Below are positions 42,933-57,976 of a DNA stretch of 64,000 bases, one piece after another; within the stretch, counting starts at the first letter, position 1; every line of letters begins with the position of its first letter. A model generated the notes under the pieces. It made no database searches, was not told the DNA's origin, and saw nothing but the letters and a program-made list of their open reading frames with translations. Made by a program: the position numbers and the translations under genes. Source of the stretch: an uncultured Clostridia bacterium (GTDB lineage Bacteria > Bacillota > Clostridia > Oscillospirales > Oscillospiraceae); the NCBI GenBank assembly GCA_945482615.1, contig CALYRG010000001.1, forward strand, positions 45,563 through 109,562. The letters run 5' to 3'.

Positions 42933-44837
42933 TTATCTCTGGTTGTATGCTGCCCGAATCCTGCTGTCGGAACACTTAAAATTGGTCAGCTTGGTACAGC
43001 CGGAGAACATACCTCCCATGTCCGTAACATTGGAGGAATCAAAACCCGAAACGTCTAATTCTTCCAGGCTTTTGCATTCTTCGAACATGCCGTTCATATT
43101 TGTAACACGGGAGGTGTCAAACCCGGAAACATTCACCCTTTTCAGATTGTAGCATTTGTAGAACATAATGTACATATTCGTCACATTGGAGGTATCAAAG
43201 CATGAAAGATCCAGTTCGGTCATGCTGGTACAGTTGGTGAACATATCCCGCATGTTCGTCACGCCGGAAGTATCGAAGCAACCGCCAAAGTCAATATCCG
43301 TCAACTCTGTGAAATACCCGAACATCCAGGATGCATCCGCATTGGGGGATATGATCCCATCTGCCGCAATATACAGTGCGCTGCCCTCCATCCAGATCAG
43401 GACGCTCCTGTCATGCGCCTGGGACACATCCTCAGCGTCTGCCGGTGCCCCCCGCAAAGAGTCCCGGAAGGTCATCGTTTTTACGTCAGAACGTTTGTAT
43501 CTGCTTTGTCCCCAGAACTCCTCTCTTGTCTTCAGACCATACAGATCCTCTGGCTGCACCATAACATTCACCTTGGCAACCACATCTCCCGGATCCGTCG
43601 ATACCGGACTCGCGGAAATTGGATGAGTTTCCCCGGTTTCTGCAGGTAAGGCTGCCGGAACGTCGGCTGGAACGTCGGCTTGACCGGAATGACTGGATTC
43701 GGAACGCTCCTCCTGTGCAACAACTGGCTTATCCTCTCGTTGCCCCACACCAAGGCCCAGCGCAATTCCGGACAGCACCAGCACCAAAGCAACAGCTCCT
43801 ATCAAAATGGGCCGCCTGTTTTTGTTCCCGGACACCACCTGCTCCAGTAGGTTTTTAGTCAGTTCCTTTTTCGCAGACACAGGGCTTTGCAGCTGGTCCA
43901 GGAGCTCCGCCATGGATTGGGTGCGGCCCTTGGCGGTGATATTCATGGCCTTTTGCAGGGCGGAAATCACGTTGGCCGGGACGCCCCGCCTGGTAAGCAG
44001 CGACCAGTCCAGAGTATCCTCCTCCACCCGGTCATTGGCATTGGGCGGAATTACCCCGGTAAGTGTGTAGTAGATGGTGGCGGCCATGGCGTACACATCC
44101 GACCAGGGCCCGGAGGCACCCCGCTGGGTGTACTGCTCAAAGGGACTGAAGCCGCTCTTTGCCACCTGGGCAGAGGATGCGCCGTTGCTGGAAGACAAAT
44201 CCTTGGCAGCCCCCAAATCCAGAATCCGTACACCCTTGGCCGTCAGCATCAGGTTGTCCGGGCTTAAATCCCGGTGGACAAGCCCTTCCCTGTGCACCTG
44301 CTCCATGGCGGAGATGGCGGGGAAAAAGATGTCTTTCGCCTGCTCCCAAGGCATGGGGCCTTTTTCTTTCAGCACGGACAGCAGGGTTTTTCCCTCGATA
44401 TAGTCCATAACGATGTAGGCGGTGTTGTTCTCCCGGAAGCTCTCCCGCACCCGGACGATCTGCGGAATGTCCTCCATTTTCGCCATCTTCCGGGCCTCCC
44501 GGAGGAAGGAATCCATGCCGCTGACCCGGAGCTTTTCCGCCTGTTCGCCGTCCCGCCACACCAGGGTTGTACCCATGGTGGAAAAGCGGCTGACCTGGCC
44601 GCTGGGGAAGTATTCCTTGATGGCCACCTTCCGTTCCAGATTCAGGTCAAAACCAATGTAGGTGATGCCGAAGCCGCCCTGACCCAGCACCCTGCCCACC
44701 ACATAGTGTCCGTTCAGCACCGTGCCCCAGGGCATGACATAATTGGAAGCCGGTGCCTTCCGAGGATCAAAGCCGCAGTGGGGGCAGGGGTAGCCCTGAA
44801 TTTCCTCCATACAGCCGAGACAACGATTAAACTGCAT
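42933..44837 (-). CDS. Ser/Thr protein kinase with TM and C-terminal BspA/DUF285-type repeats
   Basis: CLGCMEEIQGYPCPHCGFD zinc ribbon; VVGRVLGQGGFGITYIGFDLNLERKVAIKEYFP...HREGLVHRDLSPDNLMLTAKGVRILDLGAAKDL; TM; repeats FTNCTSMTELDLSCFDTSNVTNMYIMFYKCYNLKRVNVSGFDTSRVTNMNGMFEECKSLEELDVSGFDSSNVTDMGGMFSGC. Confidence 0.92.
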   Translation of the reverse strand: MQFNRCLGCMEEIQGYPCPHCGFDPRKAPASNYVMPWGTVLNGHYVVGRVLGQGGFGITYIGFDLNLERKVAIKEYFPSGQVSRFSTMGTTLVWRDGEQAEKLRVSGMDSFLREARKMAKMEDIPQIVRVRESFRENNTAYIVMDYIEGKTLLSVLKEKGPMPWEQAKDIFFPAISAMEQVHREGLVHRDLSPDNLMLTAKGVRILDLGAAKDLSSSNGASSAQVAKSGFSPFEQYTQRGASGPWSDVYAMAATIYYTLTGVIPPNANDRVEEDTLDWSLLTRRGVPANVISALQKAMNITAKGRTQSMAELLDQLQSPVSAKKELTKNLLEQVVSGNKNRRPILIGAVALVLVLSGIALGLGVGQREDKPVVAQEERSESSHSGQADVPADVPAALPAETGETHPISASPVSTDPGDVVAKVNVMVQPEDLYGLKTREEFWGQSRYKRSDVKTMTFRDSLRGAPADAEDVSQAHDRSVLIWMEGSALYIAADGIISPNADASWMFGYFTELTDIDFGGCFDTSGVTNMRDMFTNCTSMTELDLSCFDTSNVTNMYIMFYKCYNLKRVNVSGFDTSRVTNMNGMFEECKSLEELDVSGFDSSNVTDMGGMFSGCTKLTNFKCSDSRIRAAYNQR

Positions 44838-45034
44838 ATAGTCCGCCTCTTTTCGCCTTGTTTTATACATCATACCATGGGAAAACCCAATTCGCAACGA
44901 TAATATTGTGGATGGCAGAGAAAAGACTCCCGGCCTGCCCGGGGGCGGGTATCGTATTCGCCCGGGGTTCGTTATCGTGGTAACCATCTGCCGCCGGGCA
45001 GCCGGGGACGGCTGCCCCTACAAGAGGGACGCAG

Positions 45035-49296: not shown

Positions 49297-50652
49297 CAGT
49301 TATAGAACTTTCTGCACATTCGACTTTGTACAGATAGAGTCCTGTGCTGAGCAGACAGTGCGTCCATACCAGTGCCCGGGAGCCAATGGACATCTCCCCC
49401 TCGCGGATACCGTAACCGGCAGCGAGGAAGATCAAAGTGTTGTAGATATAGCGAAAATTCATGGTACACAAATGGGGGTACTGGAAGCAGAACAGAACAT
49501 AACTTCCAAACACCGCGCAGAAGCCCACACCCAGCAGCAGCCGAACCGGGATGGACGCTTTTTGCTCAGAAGCGCCCGGACAGTTCCCGCCAGCAGTACA
49601 AGGGTGCTCCCGGCACAGGACCAGATCAGCAGTACAGCGCAGACCTTCTGGGCAGTGCTGCGCAGAACCAGAATACCCTCGTCCAGCGCCATGGTTAAGG
49701 CCGTCTGCCACCAGATATTGCAGGAATTTGCCGGTTCCTCCCAGTGGATCCGGGCGGAGAATAGCTGGCGGATCGACGGCAGACCCAGCCGCCGCAGAAC
49801 GGAGCAGGAGCCAACGTATTGCGGGTGATTCGGCCCCAGATTGGGGACGTAGTTGGGCGGGACCTGAAAGAGGAACCAGTTTCGCAGCACATAACTGGTT
49901 CCCAGCGGAATGGAGATCACCGCGAACAGGGCGAACTGCCCGATAAGGGGCCATACCCCGTCCTTCTGCCGGATTCTCCGAATCAATTCATACAGGAATA
50001 CGCAGCCGATCGCCGGCGCGATGAGCACTGCCGAGGTTTTTGTCAGCATGGCAAGGGCCAACAGCAGCGCCATTTTTATGATAACACCCGTGCGGGGCTT
50101 TTTGGCCCACAGGATGGTCTGTTCGATGGTCATGGCCTGGAGCAGCGTCATCAGGCAGTCATTATTCAGTTCGGTGCCCAGCCAGTACAGGGTGGGGCCG
50201 AAGCTGAGAAAAGCGGTGAGCACCACCAGCTTCTTTCCGGTCACTTCCAGATGGGTCAGGATCCGCCAGCCCACGAAGGCAATGCCGCAGGCGAACAGGG
50301 TGTTGACGATCTGGAGCAGTTCAAAGACAGGCTCGATGGGATCTCCCATGGTATAGAATAGCTGCATCACTGCCGCGCCCACCAGATGAAACAGGGGCGG
50401 GTGATAGAACTGACCGGCGCCGACCGGGCTTGTCTGAAGCAGGTGCCGGTATTGATACAGATATTGGATGTATCCAAGGTGTCCGTTGGTTCGCTGCACC
50501 CAATCCGAGAGCCTGCCAAGGTCGTGGGGGGAAACATAGCAGGATACCTGCAGGGCATAGATGAGCTTCAGCATCGTGCCCGCCAGCAAGATCAGCAGGC
50601 ACAGTGTCCGTTCCCGCCGGCGGGCAACGTTGTGATCCAGCGTCATGGGCAT
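49292..50652 (-). pseudogene. PMT/ArnT-like multi-TM glycosyltransferase (GT39/GT83-like), frameshifted near 49559-49563
   Basis: ORF 49459-50652 has N-terminal SDWVQRTNGHLGYIQYLYQYRHLLQTSPVGAGQFYHPPLFHLVGAAVM and WLGTELNNDCLMTLL. The TM C-terminus (ASIPVRLLLGVGFCAVFGSYVLFCFQYPHLCTMNFRYIYNTLIFLAAGYGI...) continues only in the ORF 49292-49954 frame. The frame switch is at an A5 run (T5 on +). Confidence 0.75.
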
Positions 50653-50695: not shown

Positions 50696-50723
50696 CAGGA
50701 ACCAGGGTTTCCCCCGGTTCCTG
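50696..50723. promoter_or_regulatory. Stable intercistronic hairpin downstream of the small peptide gene
   Basis: CAGGAACC / GGTTCCTG arms with additional inner GGG/CCC; no T-tract. Confidence 0.65.
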
Positions 50724-50747: not shown

Positions 50748-50900
50748 TTAGGGGGCGTCGCTGGCTGGGGGCATATAGGTGGGCGCCACCGAGGATGTTG
50801 GGGCGGGTTCCTGCGTGGTGACCGCGCCGGAGGCGGTGATCACGTCCTGCGCCTCGAACTTTACCACATCCACGGACAGGGTGCTGTACAGCTTCTTCAT
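50748..50900 (-). CDS. 50-aa candidate precursor peptide
   Basis: MKKLYSTLSVDVVKFEAQDVITASG-AVTTQEPAPTSSVAPTYMPPASDAP; RBS AAAGGAGGAATGCCCT; ATG overlaps the upstream S26 gene's TGA (ATGA). Confidence 0.75.
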   Translation of the reverse strand: MKKLYSTLSVDVVKFEAQDVITASGAVTTQEPAPTSSVAPTYMPPASDAP

Positions 50901-51355
50901 AGGGCATTCCTCCTTTCTGAAAGATGGCACAGCTTCAGCAGGAAGCCGCGCGTTATCGTAAACTGCCATAGCAGAAGATACAACCGGTATCCCATGCCAT
51001 CACAGGTTACTTCCTTGTCATCCCGGAAGATCCGGGTCACCCGGCCAATCACCCAGTCGGGGGATACCCCCTCCTCGGGAACGGTCTGATTGTCTCCCCA
51101 CAGGCTTAAAGCCGCTTCCGTCACCGCTTTGACCCGGTGCAGCACGAAGCTGCCGTCGGGCCGCCGGTAAAAGAGAATGTCGTTTCTGCGGATGGGGGAG
51201 TCCACCCGCCGCAGGGCCACGGAGTCCCGGCCCTGCCGCAGCAGGGGCAGCATACTGATCCCTCTGGGATAGAGCCGGAATTCCCCATTGGACTCCAGCA
51301 CCTCCCGGATCAGAGCGTTATACTCCGAAAGCCGGATCGGCTCATTCAAGGGCAT
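50897..51355 (-). CDS. S26/S24-like signal peptidase family protein
   Basis: GEFRLYPRGISMLPLLRQGRDSVALRRVDSPIRRNDILFYRRPDGSFVLHRVKAV...LWGDNQTVPEEGVSPDWVIGRVTRIFRD (SM Ser; LHR; GDN motif). Confidence 0.8.
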   Translation of the reverse strand: MPLNEPIRLSEYNALIREVLESNGEFRLYPRGISMLPLLRQGRDSVALRRVDSPIRRNDILFYRRPDGSFVLHRVKAVTEAALSLWGDNQTVPEEGVSPDWVIGRVTRIFRDDKEVTCDGMGYRLYLLLWQFTITRGFLLKLCHLSERRNAL

Positions 51356-51605
51356 CCGCCTCGCGCAGCGCCGCCGTAAAGGCAGCCACATCCTTCCGGG
51401 CGGTCTGCTCGCTGACCTCATATTCCTCCATCAGCCGGATGGTAAGTTCTTCCTCCGTGATGCCCTGCTGCATCAGCCGGAACGCGAAGGCGCCGCTTTC
51501 GTTCAGGCGCATCATGCCGTTAAAATGCTCGCTGGCCTTTCCCGTGGCTGCCACCACAAACTGGATGCCGACCTTGCGCAGAATAAAGCCTTCCTTAATC
51601 TTCAT
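51342..51605 (-). CDS. PqqD family (RRE-like) protein
   Basis: 87 aa: MKIKEGFILRKVGIQFVVAATGKASEHFNGMMRLNESGAFAFRLMQQGITEEELTIRLMEEYEVSEQTARKDVAAFTAALREADALE. Confidence 0.85.
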   Translation of the reverse strand: MKIKEGFILRKVGIQFVVAATGKASEHFNGMMRLNESGAFAFRLMQQGITEEELTIRLMEEYEVSEQTARKDVAAFTAALREADALE

Positions 51606-52530
51606 GGTTTTCTTCCTTTCTTTCTTCCTGTGCTTTTTTCTGGTTCTTCCGGCGGGTTTGCCTTGCCTTGTCCGCCGTGCGCTTCTTTTTATACCGGGCG
51701 TGCTTTTCCTTCATGGCTTCATACTGCCCGGCGTACTCGGGAAGAAGCTCGGCATAGCTCCAGAACAGCCCCGCCATTTTGCCCCAGTACATTTCTGTCC
51801 AGGGCTTGCCCATGCCGTTATAGTGGAAGATCCGGCACCGCCCCATGGTGCGCTCCACATCCCGCTGCCGCAGGATCGCGCTGTCGAAGCAGTTGTAGAT
51901 CCTCCAGTCGGCAAATTTTGTCAGCCCATAGAACACCGCGTTCAGCACATCCTGATCGCCGTATTTCAGTTGTTTATGGAATAACACAGGGTATTCGTAA
52001 AGAATGCCGGGATCGATCTCCCGCCGCTGCCCGGCAAGGTCATACAGCAGGGTGCCCGCGTTAAAATAGATGGTATCTCTGGGCAGGGTCAACTGCTCCA
52101 GGCGCTTGGGATCCACGCCCCCCGGCCCACGACGGTTGCAGGCGACGAGCAGCTTTCCCTCAAAATCCTGATGGTAGAATTCCTCCAGGGAACCCATGAC
52201 GATCATATCCACATCCAGGTACAGCACCCGCTCCACGTCGGCAGGCAGCATTTCCTGCGCCAGCAGCCGGTAGTAGGTCTCCCGGGTGATCCATTTCAGA
52301 TGCAGGGGCGCGTCCTGGAATTTATCCTTCCCCACCGGCAAGAAAATGGCTTTGGCAAAGCCGCTTTCTTCCGCCACCTGAGAAAACCGCCGGACCTCCT
52401 CTGGCTTCAAATCCGCATAGAGCACATAGATCCGCATTTCTTCGCACCAGCGGTTATTGACCAGCAGCGACTTCAGCAGAACCAGCGCGGGCATATAGTA
52501 ATTGGAGTTAAAGCAGACCAGAATATTCAT
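51595..52530 (-). CDS. GT8 family glycosyltransferase
   Basis: MNILVCFNSNYYMPALVLLKSLLVNN...ERVLYLDVDMIVMGSLEEFYHQDFEGKLLVAC...IYFNAGTLLYDL...YGDQDVLNAVFYG...IFHYNGMGKPW (DxD); basic C-terminal tail. Confidence 0.9.
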   Translation of the reverse strand: MNILVCFNSNYYMPALVLLKSLLVNNRWCEEMRIYVLYADLKPEEVRRFSQVAEESGFAKAIFLPVGKDKFQDAPLHLKWITRETYYRLLAQEMLPADVERVLYLDVDMIVMGSLEEFYHQDFEGKLLVACNRRGPGGVDPKRLEQLTLPRDTIYFNAGTLLYDLAGQRREIDPGILYEYPVLFHKQLKYGDQDVLNAVFYGLTKFADWRIYNCFDSAILRQRDVERTMGRCRIFHYNGMGKPWTEMYWGKMAGLFWSYAELLPEYAGQYEAMKEKHARYKKKRTADKARQTRRKNQKKAQEERKEENHED

Positions 52531-53249
52531 TCCGAGGTTCCTCCGTTCACCGCCTGATAGGCGCGTATGACAGAATTTTCAGACATATCGCAGTTGAGTA
52601 CATAAAAAGGAAGGGTGCTGACCAGCTTATCCGCCATATCCAGCAGGCGGAGCATCCGGTCCGGCTCTCTGGGCAGCAGGAGCTGGCGGAACAGCAGGTC
52701 TACCGTCTGAATGTGGTCCGCCGGAACAGCCTCCGGCTCCTGGCTCCGGTTCAGAAAAAAGAGTGCTTTCAGCGGTGCCGAAAGGTTGCCGCCCAGCCCC
52801 TCCTTGCCCCGCCACGGGGTGCCGTAGGCATCGAAGCGGACCCCATCGGCGGTGGTGACCATGCGGATCAGGGGCTTGTCCCCGTTGATGACATGAAGCC
52901 GGGCACCAAAATGCTGCTGCCACAGCCGGGTCTGGGTGGTTTTCCCCACGCCGCTGGGGGCGAGGAAGGCGTAGCCCTCTGCGTCCACCGCCACCACGGA
53001 GCCGTGCATTACGAACACATCTCTGTCCAGCAGCGCGTTCGCCGCCTTGCGGTAGGCGCAGACTGTTTCCAGATAGCCGTCAGAGAAATCTCCCGGCTGC
53101 ATGGCCCTTTCCTGAGCCAGCTCCTCCGGAGCCACGCGGATCTGGATTTCCGCGGTCAGCTCCGTCTCAAAGCCCCGGCACAGCTCGTGAAGGTCGGGAT
53201 AGCGGTTGTCAAATTCCACCGGGATCCCGGCAAGCAGTATCTTAACCAT
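52527..53249 (-). CDS. HPr kinase-like / PEPCK-fold kinase
   Basis: VFVMHGSVVAVDAEGYAFLAPSGVGKTTQTRLWQQHFGARLHVINGDKPLIRM (P-loop GVGKTT, preceding VMHGS). Confidence 0.8.
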   Translation of the reverse strand: MVKILLAGIPVEFDNRYPDLHELCRGFETELTAEIQIRVAPEELAQERAMQPGDFSDGYLETVCAYRKAANALLDRDVFVMHGSVVAVDAEGYAFLAPSGVGKTTQTRLWQQHFGARLHVINGDKPLIRMVTTADGVRFDAYGTPWRGKEGLGGNLSAPLKALFFLNRSQEPEAVPADHIQTVDLLFRQLLLPREPDRMLRLLDMADKLVSTLPFYVLNCDMSENSVIRAYQAVNGGTSE

Positions 53250-54384
53250 GGCTTTCTCCTTTCCCGAACAGCGACCGAAGATGCTGCCAGAAGCCCTTCT
53301 CATTGTGGATCATCATGGAGATCAATCGCACCACCCAGAATACCGGCAGCAGCACCGGGAGCTTATCCAAAATCGGATACCGCCGCCGCATTTCGGACAG
53401 GGGTCTGAAAAACCGGGGCAGGCTGTAGGCAAAAAAGCGGATGATGGGATTGGGGTATTTCCGCCCCAACTTCTCCATGCGCTTCCGGGTCCGGCTCTCC
53501 AGAGACGCAAGACTCCCGCAGTCACAGATAGCCCGGGCCATGGGCTGCAGCTCCTCCGGCACAGGCTCCCCGCTCTCAAACCAGCAGCGGCAGAGCACCT
53601 CCACCTGCTGCCGCAGCGTCCCAAGGCCCAGCCGATCAAGCTCGCTGTTTACATACGCTTTGTCCATCTCCGGGAAGCTCCGCTGGTAGATAAGGCTATC
53701 CAGAACAGAGCGCAGGCCGGTGCCGCCCTCGTTCAGGTGCTTGTTCAGATGAAGAAAATAGTAGATATATTCATCCTCCGGCTTCAGCCGGTACAGACCC
53801 GGGGCTTGCTTTTGCGCCTTGTCCCACACGTTGTCGTAATAGTGACGGTGCTCGTCAATGTCGGGAAGCATCGAGGTGTGCAGCTCCAGCGCAGTATAGG
53901 GCGGTTTTTTGTAAGTAGTGTGATGGTAGCATACTTCGCTCTGCTGCCAGCCCAGTTTTTTCAGCAGCTTCCCCGCCGGCAGGGCATCCTTGGGATGAAT
54001 GAGCATATCCAGATCCGACATCTGACGGTCATTGATATCCGGGTACATCTCCTTCAGCCAACAGCCCTTGATGGGCAGCACATCGATCCCGGCGGCGGTC
54101 AGGACTGCGATCACATCGTCCCGCTCCTGAAGCTGGACAATGCTTTGCGCCAGCGCAATGTCGGTCCGGGTCTGCCACTGCGCATCGATCTGCCCATTCC
54201 TGTCCAGCGAGTGCAGACCCCGAAGCACCAATGCTTCTATGGAATGCCGCCGTGAAAAGTCCAGAAGCTGCCGGCAGGGCAGATCCTGGGGCACCGGCGG
54301 CACCGGCTGATCCCACATGAGACACCGGATCAGGCAGATGATGTAATTCTCCGTTTTTGTCAAGGTGTCCGTATATATTTCCAT
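53242..54384 (-). CDS. Nucleotidyltransferase family protein (NTP_transf_5-like, PF14907)
   Basis: IAVLTAAGIDVLPIKGCWLKEMYPDINDRQMSDLDMLIHPKDALPAGKLLKKLGWQQSEVCYHHTTYKKPPYTALELHTSML. Confidence 0.8.
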   Translation of the reverse strand: MEIYTDTLTKTENYIICLIRCLMWDQPVPPVPQDLPCRQLLDFSRRHSIEALVLRGLHSLDRNGQIDAQWQTRTDIALAQSIVQLQERDDVIAVLTAAGIDVLPIKGCWLKEMYPDINDRQMSDLDMLIHPKDALPAGKLLKKLGWQQSEVCYHHTTYKKPPYTALELHTSMLPDIDEHRHYYDNVWDKAQKQAPGLYRLKPEDEYIYYFLHLNKHLNEGGTGLRSVLDSLIYQRSFPEMDKAYVNSELDRLGLGTLRQQVEVLCRCWFESGEPVPEELQPMARAICDCGSLASLESRTRKRMEKLGRKYPNPIIRFFAYSLPRFFRPLSEMRRRYPILDKLPVLLPVFWVVRLISMMIHNEKGFWQHLRSLFGKGESHG

Positions 54385-54395
54385 TGTCTCTTACC

Positions 54396-55142
54396 TCAGC
54401 CCCGGTATGCGTTTTCATACAGGCAGAACACTTCTTCTGTATCGCCAAAGGCCATCATCTGCCCATGATCCAGCCAGACCGCCTTGGGACACAGAGTCTT
54501 GACCTGCTCCGCGCTGTGGCTGACAAACAAAAGGGTCGTGCCGCCCTCCAGAAGCTCTGCGATCTTCCTGTGGCACTTTTCCCGGAAACGGAAATCTCCC
54601 ACCGCCAGCACTTCATCCACGATCAGGATGTCCGCTTTTACGATGGTGGCAAGGGAGAAGCCCAGCCGGGCGACCATACCCGAGGAATAGTTTTTGAGCG
54701 GGACATCAATGAAATCCCTCAGCTCCGAGAATTCCACGATCTGCTCAAAATGCCGATCCATAAACGCCCGGTTATGACCCAGAATAGCGCCGTTCATGTA
54801 GATATTTTCTCTCGCCGTCAGCTCCGGGTCAAAGCCGGCTCCCAGCTCGATCAGCGGTGCGATGCTCCCGTTTACTGTAACGCTTCCCATCGTAGGGTAA
54901 AGGACACCCGCCACGAGTTTCAGAAGCGTACTTTTTCCGCTTCCGTTTTTCCCGATCAGCGCCACGGCTTCGCCCCGCTTTATCTGAAAGGACACATCCC
55001 GCAGCGCGAAGAACTCATTGAAGTGCAGCTTTCCTGTGGCCAGCTTTACCAGGTACTCCTTGATGGTATCCGTCTTCTGCTCTGCCAGGTTGAACCGCAT
55101 GGTAACATTGCTGATGTCGATGATCGTATCTGTGTTTTCCAT
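54396..55142 (-). CDS. ABC transporter ATP-binding protein (TagH/Wzt-like)
   Basis: TIKEYLVKLATGKLHFNEFFALRDVSFQIKRGEAVALIGKNGSGKSTLLKLVAGVLYPTMGSVTVNGSIAPLIELGAGFDPELTARENIYMNGAILG. Confidence 0.93.
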   Translation of the reverse strand: MENTDTIIDISNVTMRFNLAEQKTDTIKEYLVKLATGKLHFNEFFALRDVSFQIKRGEAVALIGKNGSGKSTLLKLVAGVLYPTMGSVTVNGSIAPLIELGAGFDPELTARENIYMNGAILGHNRAFMDRHFEQIVEFSELRDFIDVPLKNYSSGMVARLGFSLATIVKADILIVDEVLAVGDFRFREKCHRKIAELLEGGTTLLFVSHSAEQVKTLCPKAVWLDHGQMMAFGDTEEVFCLYENAYRG

Positions 55143-55154
55143 ATGCGTGTCTCC

Positions 55155-55946
55155 TTACAGATACAGGATAAAGTTCCGCTGCAGCTTTCGGAAAACCAAA
55201 GCTCCCACCAAAAGGGCCAGCACACTGTATCCGGCGCAGCCAAGCCAGCAGGCCGCCGAAGGCAGCGTTCCGTACAGCACGACCTCACGGAAAAAGGTGA
55301 TATAGTGGTATATGGGATTAAACTTAATAAAAAAGGCGACCTTCTCAGGCAGCGCGCTGATGGGGTAGAAGATCGGCGTCAGGTACATCCAGGCCATCAC
55401 AACAACGCTGTAAAGGTGCAGAATGTCCCGAAAATGCACCGCCAGAGCGGACAGCGCCATCCCAACGCCCGTACAGAACAGCAGCAGGAAAACAAGCGGG
55501 ATCGGAACCAACAGCAGCTTCCAGGTCAGCGGAACCCGGGTCACCAGCATCACGATCAGGATCGCCGCCAGGCTGAAGCTCATGGTAACGAAGCTGGACA
55601 GCACCCGGGATACGGGGAATATGTATTTCGGGATGTAAACCTTGCGAATGAGGGGACCGTTGACAATGACGGATGACATGGCCATCGTGGTGCTCTCATT
55701 AAAGAAAGACCACAGCGTTTGACCGCAGATCAGGTACAGCGGATAATTCGGAATTTTGAAACGGAACATATAGGAGAACACCACTGTCATGATAGTCATC
55801 ATCAGCAGCGGGTTCAGCAGGCTCCAAAGATATCCCAGGAAGCTTCTGCGGTATTTTACTTTCAGATCCCGCGATACAAGCTCAATCAGCAGAGGCTTGT
55901 ACTGGCAGAACCTCCGGATCTGCAAAAAGTTTTTGGGTAGTTTCAT
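55155..55946 (-). CDS. ABC-2 type transporter permease (TagG/Wzm-like)
   Basis: LLIELVSRDLKVKYRRSFLGYLWSLLNPLLMMTIMTVVFSYMFRFKIPNYPLYLICGQTLWSFFNESTTMAMSSVIVNGPLIRKVYIPKYIFP. Confidence 0.93.
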   Translation of the reverse strand: MKLPKNFLQIRRFCQYKPLLIELVSRDLKVKYRRSFLGYLWSLLNPLLMMTIMTVVFSYMFRFKIPNYPLYLICGQTLWSFFNESTTMAMSSVIVNGPLIRKVYIPKYIFPVSRVLSSFVTMSFSLAAILIVMLVTRVPLTWKLLLVPIPLVFLLLFCTGVGMALSALAVHFRDILHLYSVVVMAWMYLTPIFYPISALPEKVAFFIKFNPIYHYITFFREVVLYGTLPSAACWLGCAGYSVLALLVGALVFRKLQRNFILYL

Positions 55947-56469: not shown

Positions 56470-56532
56470 TTGTCGTTTCCCGACTTTTGCAGAGAGCTCA
56501 TGTACGATCATGGTCATGCTTGGGAATAATAC

Positions 56533-56602
56533 TTGACACGCAATATAAAAGACATTATAATTTTACTAAACCTCCACAAAAATACATGTGTTGTGGAGGT
56601 TT
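56533..56602 (+). promoter_or_regulatory. AbiE promoter with a 12-bp perfect inverted repeat at the transcription start
   Basis: TTGACA (56533-56538), N17, TATAAT (56556-56561); AAACCTCCACAA (56568-56579) / TTGTGGAGGTTT (56591-56602). Confidence 0.85.
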
Positions 56603-56630
56603 GGTAAAATACGTAACCGGAGGTGATCAC

Positions 56631-57173
56631 ATGCTGTTCTCGTCCAAAGAATGCAAAGAGAAGTACGGAAATTATTATCAAATCAACAAAGCAATTCAAG
56701 CTGGCACCCTTTACAAAGTTGCTGATGGAGTTTATTCTGACACTCCCAGAGTTTCAGAGGTTGAGATCATCATGTACAGATACCCTCAAACAGTGTTTAC
56801 ACTGAACAGCGCCTTTTATTATCACGGTCTTACGGATGTTATTCCAAACAGGTATTATCTTGCTACGGTCCGTGATACGCATAAAATTCCGGATCCGAAA
56901 ATCAAGCAGGTGTTCTATTCTACAGATAAATTTTCTGTCGGTATATCCGACTTGGCATACCAGGGAACGACTATTCGGATCTATGACCGGGAGCGCATGC
57001 TGATTGAGTTGATCCGGTCCGCAAAGAATTTGCCATTCGATTACTATAAAGAAATAATTGAGAGCTATCGCCGCAGCGTACACAGTCTGGATATCCAGAA
57101 ACTGCAGGAATATATTCCGGCGTTTCCCAAAGGCGATGCAATCATGGAAGCCATCGAGCTGGAGGTCCTATAA
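56631..57173 (+). CDS. AbiEi-like type IV antitoxin / transcriptional regulator
   Basis: MLFSSKECKEKYGNYYQINKAIQAGTLYKVADGVYSDTPRVSEVEIIMYRYPQTVFTLNSAFYYHGLTDVIPNRYYLATVRDTHKIPDPKIKQVFY; upstream of an AbiEii-like gene. Confidence 0.8.
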   Translation: MLFSSKECKEKYGNYYQINKAIQAGTLYKVADGVYSDTPRVSEVEIIMYRYPQTVFTLNSAFYYHGLTDVIPNRYYLATVRDTHKIPDPKIKQVFYSTDKFSVGISDLAYQGTTIRIYDRERMLIELIRSAKNLPFDYYKEIIESYRRSVHSLDIQKLQEYIPAFPKGDAIMEAIELEVL

Positions 57174-57976
57174 TGATACAAATTGCCGAGATGATACAGA
57201 AGGCAAAAGCAGAAGGCTATAATGAAGCAAATGCCGAGGCGAAGGTGTGCCAGGACATTGTACTGACTCTTATTTCCCGGACCTCTATGAATCGGAACAT
57301 TACCGTAAAGGGCGGCGTTGTGATGCGGAGCATCTCCCATGATGCCCGCCGTGCTACCCAGGATATTGATTTGGATTTTATCCGTTATCCGTTGCAGGAC
57401 GAAGCAATCCGAGCCTTTATTAATAAGCTGAACTCAGTGGGTATGGTTTCCATTCAGATGACCGGCGCGATAGAAGAACTGAACCAGCAGGATTATCACG
57501 GAAAACGCATCCATATTGCAATCCGGGATGCAGAAGGAACTCTGCTCTCCAGCAAAATCGACCTGGGTGTACATAAACACTTTGACATTGAACAGGAAGA
57601 TTTCTGTTTTGATGTTGGTATTGATGATATCGGTGCCAGTCTGCTCATTAACTCCAAAGAGCAGATGCTGACGGAGAAACTTCGTTCCATTTTGAAATTT
57701 GGTGCTTTCTCCACCCGTTATAAGGATATTTTCGATATCTACTACCTGCTGGATCTAAGCGATCGGGAGAAGCTGCAGCACTGCTTCACAACGCTGATCT
57801 TTGCAGATCCCGGAATGCGGGAAAATAATATGGATGATATCATTCGCCGCGTAGACACTACATTCAAGAACAAGCGATATCTGGACCGGCTTAATAGATC
57901 GGAGAAAAATTGGCTCGGTTTAGATGTTGCGGATGTGCTGTCCGGTATCCTTACCCGGTTGCAAGTATTAAAATAA
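57173..57976 (+). CDS. AbiEii-like nucleotidyltransferase toxin
   Basis: ISRTSMNRNITVKGGVVMRSISHDARRATQDIDLDFIRYPLQD...SKIDLGVHKH...MLTEKLRSILKFGAFSTRYKDIFDIYYLL; TAATG overlap with abiEi. Confidence 0.85.
   Translation: MIQIAEMIQKAKAEGYNEANAEAKVCQDIVLTLISRTSMNRNITVKGGVVMRSISHDARRATQDIDLDFIRYPLQDEAIRAFINKLNSVGMVSIQMTGAIEELNQQDYHGKRIHIAIRDAEGTLLSSKIDLGVHKHFDIEQEDFCFDVGIDDIGASLLINSKEQMLTEKLRSILKFGAFSTRYKDIFDIYYLLDLSDREKLQHCFTTLIFADPGMRENNMDDIIRRVDTTFKNKRYLDRLNRSEKNWLGLDVADVLSGILTRLQVLK

Follow-up and report, generated by a model that had tools for sequence, protein, structure and literature searches.

Linear polyphosphorylated peptides (LPPs) are represented by the lpp cluster of Paenibacillus alginolyticus (Popov et al. 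2026, PMC13381572), and the type of cassette analyzed here has been known since 2026 under that name. As laid out in the main text of that paper, the LPP set consists of a SpI-like peptidase, an RRE, an HprK, an NTP transferase and a MsbA-like pump. LppK phosphorylates only Ser3, with neither Thr nor Tyr accepted there; LppS cleaves after Thr-1, only with LppB, and cuts the phosphorylated precursor better; and P-13A weakens leader binding (PMC13381572, main text). The same text locates LPP clusters in capsule loci, treats LPP and lasso relatives as natural-product clusters with patchy distribution, and states that no role is known for LPPs and paeninodins. Phosphorylated lasso peptides (paeninodin, pseudomycoidin and Bsf; PMC9266682, PMC10368454) share with the locus described below an HprK-like kinase, a PqqD-type B1 protein and a nucleotidyltransferase; their leader motif [Y/W]xxPx[L/V/I] has a counterpart in much of the peptide family (YxxP or FxxP) but not in the window's YSTL. 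In the case of pseudomycoidin, PsmN appears to add a sugar to the phosphate (PMC9266682).

The 50-aa gene and its cassette

The window (the whole 64,000-nt stretch of DNA analyzed) carries at positions 50748–50900, on the minus strand, a gene whose translation is MKKLYSTLSVDVVKFEAQDVITASGAVTTQEPAPTSSVAPTYMPPASDAP, with the stop codon at its end. Leader-like residues 1–24/25 are followed by a variable tail of Ser, Thr, Pro and Tyr. A sequence-only reading had proposed a precursor peptide here, without giving the strand, and had pointed to a strong RBS and a start codon overlapping the stop of the S26 gene. Both features were seen: a strong Shine–Dalgarno element, AAAGGAGG, lies 8 nt before the ATG in the upstream sequence AAAGGAGGAATGCCCTATGA, and the ATG overlaps the stop of the S26-type peptidase gene as ATGA. 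The tail counts given in that reading (6 Pro, 7 Ser/Thr, 1 Tyr, no Cys) are also correct. Directly 3' of the peptide stop is a 12-bp hairpin without a U-run (50696–50723, minus strand; fold z-score -5.4).

The peptide gene is the eighth and last of a packed minus-strand group, TagG-TagH-NTP5-HprK-GT8-PqqD-S26-peptide. The group starts with a TagG/Wzm-type ABC permease (55155–55946) and a TagH/Wzt-type ABC ATPase (54396–55142), followed by a nucleotidyltransferase of the NTP_transf_5 type, similar to LppN and PsmN (53242–54384; PF14907, E 5.3e-44). Next come an HprK-like, LppK-like peptide kinase (52527–53249; Walker A SGVGKT; family kinase alignment A3) and a glycosyltransferase of family 8 (51595–52530; PF01501, E 2.1e-33). 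GT8 is found in only part of the window's branch, being absent from clusters L219, L280 and L281. A discrete RRE of the PqqD family, LppB/B1-like (51342–51605; PF05402, E 1.2e-14), and an S26-type (archaeal/ER-type) signal-peptidase-like protease (50897–51355), the proposed LppS-like leader peptidase, precede the peptide. Beyond the hairpin, the wider group ends with a PMT_2-type (GT-C) sugar transferase gene (49459–50652, minus strand; PF13231, E 2.1e-7), which also lies behind the peptide in cluster L217. Elsewhere in the window, reading by eye suggested a Ser/Thr-kinase-like protein with C-terminal BspA-like repeats of the DMSGMF type (42933–44987) and an adjacent gene pair resembling the AbiEi/AbiEii type (56487–57976).

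Several of these proteins could be compared with solved structures. The S26-type peptidase has Ser34 and His73 invariant in the family alignment; its profile has SEC11A as best PDB match, and its structure model matches the SipA/SpsB fold. For the RRE, the nearest solved proteins are the lasso B1 proteins TbiB1, TfuB1 and PbaB1 together with LppB; profile scores were similar for TfuB1, PbaB1 and LppB and somewhat higher for TbiB1. Asn35, Asp72 and Phe76 of the RRE align with N33, D70 and F74 of LppB, the residues that fix the YxxP leader there. Sequence searches with HprK and NTP_transf_5 against solved structures found no homologue. The window's putative kinase has the motif NGDKP rather than NDDKP, Gly taking the place of the leading Asp in the DD pair, as in 27 of 84 family members, so that its activity is uncertain.

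We consider it probable that the 50-aa ORF encodes a precursor from which an LPP-like modified peptide is made. The likeness extends to a SpI/Sec11-type leader peptidase, a discrete RRE, an HprK kinase, an NTP transferase, an ABC exporter and the lack of a cyclase, as well as to an aromatic-xxP-type leader, a variable tail and a conserved Ser ∼18–19 residues past the aromatic residue (+19 for Ser24 of the family, +18 for Ser3 of LppA). Yet the leader reads EDVITxS in the window's family and HQxIxFETxxS in LPPs, and none of 139 peptides matched the LPP leader consensus (YxxPxVLxHQxIxFETxxS, Px9Fx[T/A]), so plain membership in the LPPs was rejected. The family also differs in its Clostridia branch and in having many of its precursors encoded in trans, downstream of genes for secreted proteins, and the window differs in its TagG/TagH, GT8 and mucin-like tail. 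No MsbA-like transporter is present in the window's group, where TagG/TagH stands instead; MsbA-type exporters are present in relatives such as L157, L166, L167 and L170. The missing LPP consensus, a YxxL leader, the NGDKP kinase and the lack of an MsbA-type exporter in the window's group all count against an LPP-like product, for which there are no expression, mass or binding data. A lasso precursor was rejected as well, since no macrolactam cyclase (asparagine-synthetase-like C) was found in the window operon or among the 25 most frequent of the 65 families in 20 cassettes. Unlike the phosphorylated lasso systems, then, the locus shows no cyclase and no B2 cysteine protease, and a linear product is expected.

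Conservation and spread of the peptide family

When 85,462 species genomes were scanned with the kinase of the window, five close relatives emerged, and a search of the genus added more. The ORF frame is kept in five related clusters (L217, L218, L219, L279 and L280), where changes in codons 2–24 are mostly synonymous and residues 1–24 are retained (dN 0–0.18, dS 0.06–1.2). In L217, whose cluster proteins are ∼94–100% identical to the window's, leader residues 1–25 are unchanged, with one synonymous change; the tail is AVTTQKPAASEPPYSTSEPPYSTSEAPATTAEPSYAPDVTQ, in part built of 7-residue repeats. In the other four, with cluster proteins ∼54–85% identical to the window's, most of the leader is retained (dN 0.08–0.18, dS 0.5–1.2 against the window) and the tails are little alike. 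Judged by these substitutions, the leader is under purifying selection, and a fixed leader joined to a free tail is the pattern of a precursor peptide. The expectation that the N-terminus would be conserved and the tail hypervariable was therefore met in these clusters. That the ORF arose by chance or is a gene fragment might be supposed from its short length and its lack of a match in Pfam, NCBIfam or PHROGs; conservation of the leader and the many homologues that stand as separate genes rule this out, leaving it a negligible probability.

With the protein query alone, weak relatives were found in 301 genomes of the taxonomic family, of which about eleven clearly had the same pattern. A leader profile built from these eleven or so matched 32 of 251 genomes in the family, 57 of 247 in the order and 31 of 246 in the class, and a single genome (G736) has as many as 28 copies. 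In the window's genus, 43 of 136 genomes are positive. No Pfam or NCBIfam model covers the family. The 50-aa ORF is thus a real gene, a member of a large, unnamed family of small precursors in gut Clostridia. The leader pattern that the sequence-only reading had proposed turned out to be that of a widespread family, and its alternative of a fragment of a larger protein was not borne out, the homologues being separate genes.

The family leader has the consensus [YF]xxPx[IV]E[VI]xxFxxEDVITxS. YxxP or FxxP occurs in 98 of 139 peptides; the window's peptide has YSTL, with Leu for the usual Pro. Among 127 anchored unique sequences, Ser24 is present in 125 and Thr22 in 96, and Ser24 is the single hydroxyl residue common to nearly all members. 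Tails in this set have a median of 22 residues, and 14 lack any Ser or Thr. That such tails exist while Ser24 is nearly invariant suggests that the kinase is probably not directed at the tail. Some endings are common within a genome or genus, e.g. YVxxGxKxWxDIYG in G543, G577 and G631; one paralogue group retains GLINGGxGSGDxxxFxDLFPGL in four genomes; and genome G772 (L282, 5008–6114) has five tandem leader peptides with an identical C-terminal NPNCENEGPAGDAFL and differing linkers. Some cores are thus conserved; the window's is not.

Other members showed further arrangements. A long precursor in L286 (2045–2677, plus strand) has the core TTW[IV]P[NR]ENEGxxDWGA twice, and another in L287 (2254–2793, minus strand) has Cys repeats of the CVLDGQ type. 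A peptide from another taxonomic family (L290, 4251–4565) has tandem SSVA(P/A)T repeats, and the string TSSVAPT also occurs in the window's tail. Two relatives adjoin a radical-SAM-like gene and not the cassette (L021, 978–2042 and 2148–2300; L022, 11317–11445 and 11551–12618). The radical-SAM call rests on reading by eye of a Cys motif close to the N-terminus; these two peptides may be modified by yet another route.

The cassette accompanies the peptide over a wide range. In distant relatives (25–40% identity), the peptide adjoins HprK, PqqD, S26, NTP5 and an ABC exporter. Among 78 peptide-positive genomes, 75 had a match to the kinase profile, in most cases below 1e-60, versus 12 of 78 peptide-negative controls, two of them below 1e-60 (Fisher p 3e-27, with related genomes not independent). 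The A3 kinase profile was partly built from peptide-adjacent cassettes in some of the genomes counted; many-copy genomes (e.g. G736, G543, G544, G577, G602 and G629) were not used to build it. Within the window's genus, an HprK match below 1e-55 was found in 38 of 43 peptide-positive genomes versus ∼24 of 93 others, and in the regions read, HprK was accompanied by PqqD and mostly also by S26 and an exporter. A single ORF in L277 (2–1234, minus strand), as in L272 and L275, resembles the S26 peptidase as well as NTP_transf_5; this suggests a fusion of two cassette proteins, tying S26 to NTP5. The link between peptide and cassette is not absolute, as G434 has an HprK homologue (in region L289, 1551–6719) without PqqD or S26. 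Its neighbors resemble, by eye, phosphonate biosynthesis genes (phosphonopyruvate decarboxylase-like). The tie to PqqD, kinase and peptidase genes that had been drawn for the window is present in situ and, for the kinase, holds across genomes too. In sum, the earlier interpretation of a precursor with leader and tail is supported, with binding, modification and cleavage as inferences only.

Precursors in trans behind secreted-protein genes

Most peptides of the family lie outside the cassette, 0–50 nt behind another gene (L177–L216 and others), with one cassette elsewhere in the genome. Flanking sequence was read for 43 dispersed peptides, and for 38 of them an ORF on the same strand ends ≤120 nt upstream. 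All 34 complete upstream proteins carry a Sec-type signal, versus 113 of 309 other ORFs (37%); signals were called by a simple rule, and the background comprised the other ORFs of the same regions and of the cassette regions. Pfam domains of the partners are of the surface-protein type and mixed (Big_2, LRR_5, InlB-like, GLUG). A single C-terminal domain common to all partners was sought and rejected, as there are only loosely related groups with mixed Pfam domains. In one case (L076, 580–1614), the reading frame of an SLH-type secreted protein continues into a leader peptide with no stop codon in between. A true fusion of the two was not accepted: the peptide has its own RBS and ATG, and read-through or a lost stop is equally likely.

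The tight coupling, at 0–50 nt, could mean that the small ORF is never modified and acts with PqqD to regulate how the coupled gene is translated or its product folded. But the coupled genes are of several kinds (secreted proteins, S26, kinase), tails vary between members, and a kinase accompanies the peptide nearly without exception, making this very unlikely. An ordinary secreted RiPP with a signalling or antimicrobial product, whose secreted-protein neighbors merely share promoters, would agree with the patchy natural-product clusters of LPP and lasso relatives (PMC13381572, main text), and the tandem peptides of G772 and the repeated cores of L286 and L287 resemble RiPP diversification. 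Shared promoters hardly explain 34 of 34 signal-bearing partners of many families, however, and no immunity gene was seen; we regard this explanation as unlikely.

A more speculative reading, which we hold to be less likely than not, is one of surface decoration on a genome-wide scale. One cassette would modify and export many peptides, each the dedicated partner of the secreted, adhesin-like protein encoded upstream, and the products would be parts for attachment, capping or recognition, not antibiotics or signals. In sortase-like and CTERM surface systems, too, a single machinery processes many secreted proteins of a genome. Unlike in those systems, the element recognized here would be encoded by a small gene of its own, downstream of the secreted protein's gene, and would not be the protein's tail.

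Tail composition and a proposed pathway

Tail composition was compared in six clusters. Tails of the three with TagG/TagH and GT8 (window, L217 and L218) are 54–64% Ser/Thr/Pro/Tyr, the top three of the family in this respect; the tail of L279, with GT8 only, is at 29%, and those of L219 and L280, with neither, at 17–24%. Richness in Ser, Thr and Pro is thus special to the window's branch and tracks TagG/TagH more closely than it does the kinase or GT8, although the cases are few. GT8 alone as the cause of a mucin-like tail was rejected, since the tail of L279 is not of this kind despite its GT8. The sequence-only reading had matched the hydroxyl-rich tail to the kinase and glycosyltransferase neighbors. 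The kinase half of that match probably does not hold; glycosylation of the tail is probable.

In these few cases, mucin-like tails fit a role in glycosylation or in a glycopolymer. The mature peptide might be the acceptor for a sugar chain built by GT8, the GT-C enzyme and others, with the kinase and nucleotidyltransferase installing the first phosphodiester link and TagG/TagH flipping or exporting a surface glycopeptide or wall-polymer cap. TagG/TagH and GT8 in the operon, the split in tail Ser/Thr/Pro/Tyr share (0.54–0.64 in three clusters with TagG/TagH versus 0.17–0.29 in three without), further GT2- and GT-C-like genes downstream in L218 (read by eye) and the capsule-locus setting of LPP clusters (PMC13381572, main text) speak for such a primer. 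But only six clusters were compared, L279 has GT8 but lacks a tail of this kind, and both GT8 and TagG/TagH are missing from most of the family, so that we hold it to be somewhat unlikely.

For the LPP-like precursor, we propose the following pathway. The leader strand (Y5..V13) would be held by the PqqD-type RRE, and the HprK-like kinase would phosphorylate the invariant Ser24. Given the Ser3 specificity of LppK and the LppA-like spacing of Ser24, this residue is probably what the kinase acts on, and cleavage between Ile21 and Thr22 is the simplest assumption, which would place Ser24 at core position 3, as is the case in LPP and Bsf peptides. A further group may be attached to the phosphate by NTP_transf_5, possibly a sugar by likeness to pseudomycoidin. 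The S26-type peptidase would cut near residues 21–24; cleavage after Thr22 or Ser24 is not excluded, and the exact site is a guess. An ABC transporter, TagG/TagH in the window and MsbA-type in most relatives, would export the product. In the window's branch, the Ser/Thr/Pro/Tyr tail would probably receive sugars from GT8 and the GT-C enzyme, and in most other Clostridia one cassette may serve many precursors, each directly behind a secreted-protein gene. Every chemical step, like any joint action of peptide and secreted partner, is inferred by analogy, starting from what is observed: the gene, its conserved leader, the conserved gene set, their joint occurrence across genomes and the pairing of peptides with secreted proteins.

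The leader class, the spread in Clostridia, the precursors in trans and the pairing with secreted proteins do not appear in the main text of PMC13381572. The family adds a large set of unannotated small genes for gut bacteria, with 43 of 136 genomes in the window's genus alone. Pairing with secreted proteins of the LRR and Big_2 types, with the cassette in trans, offers a handle on the role of LPP-type peptides and predicts which proteins to examine.
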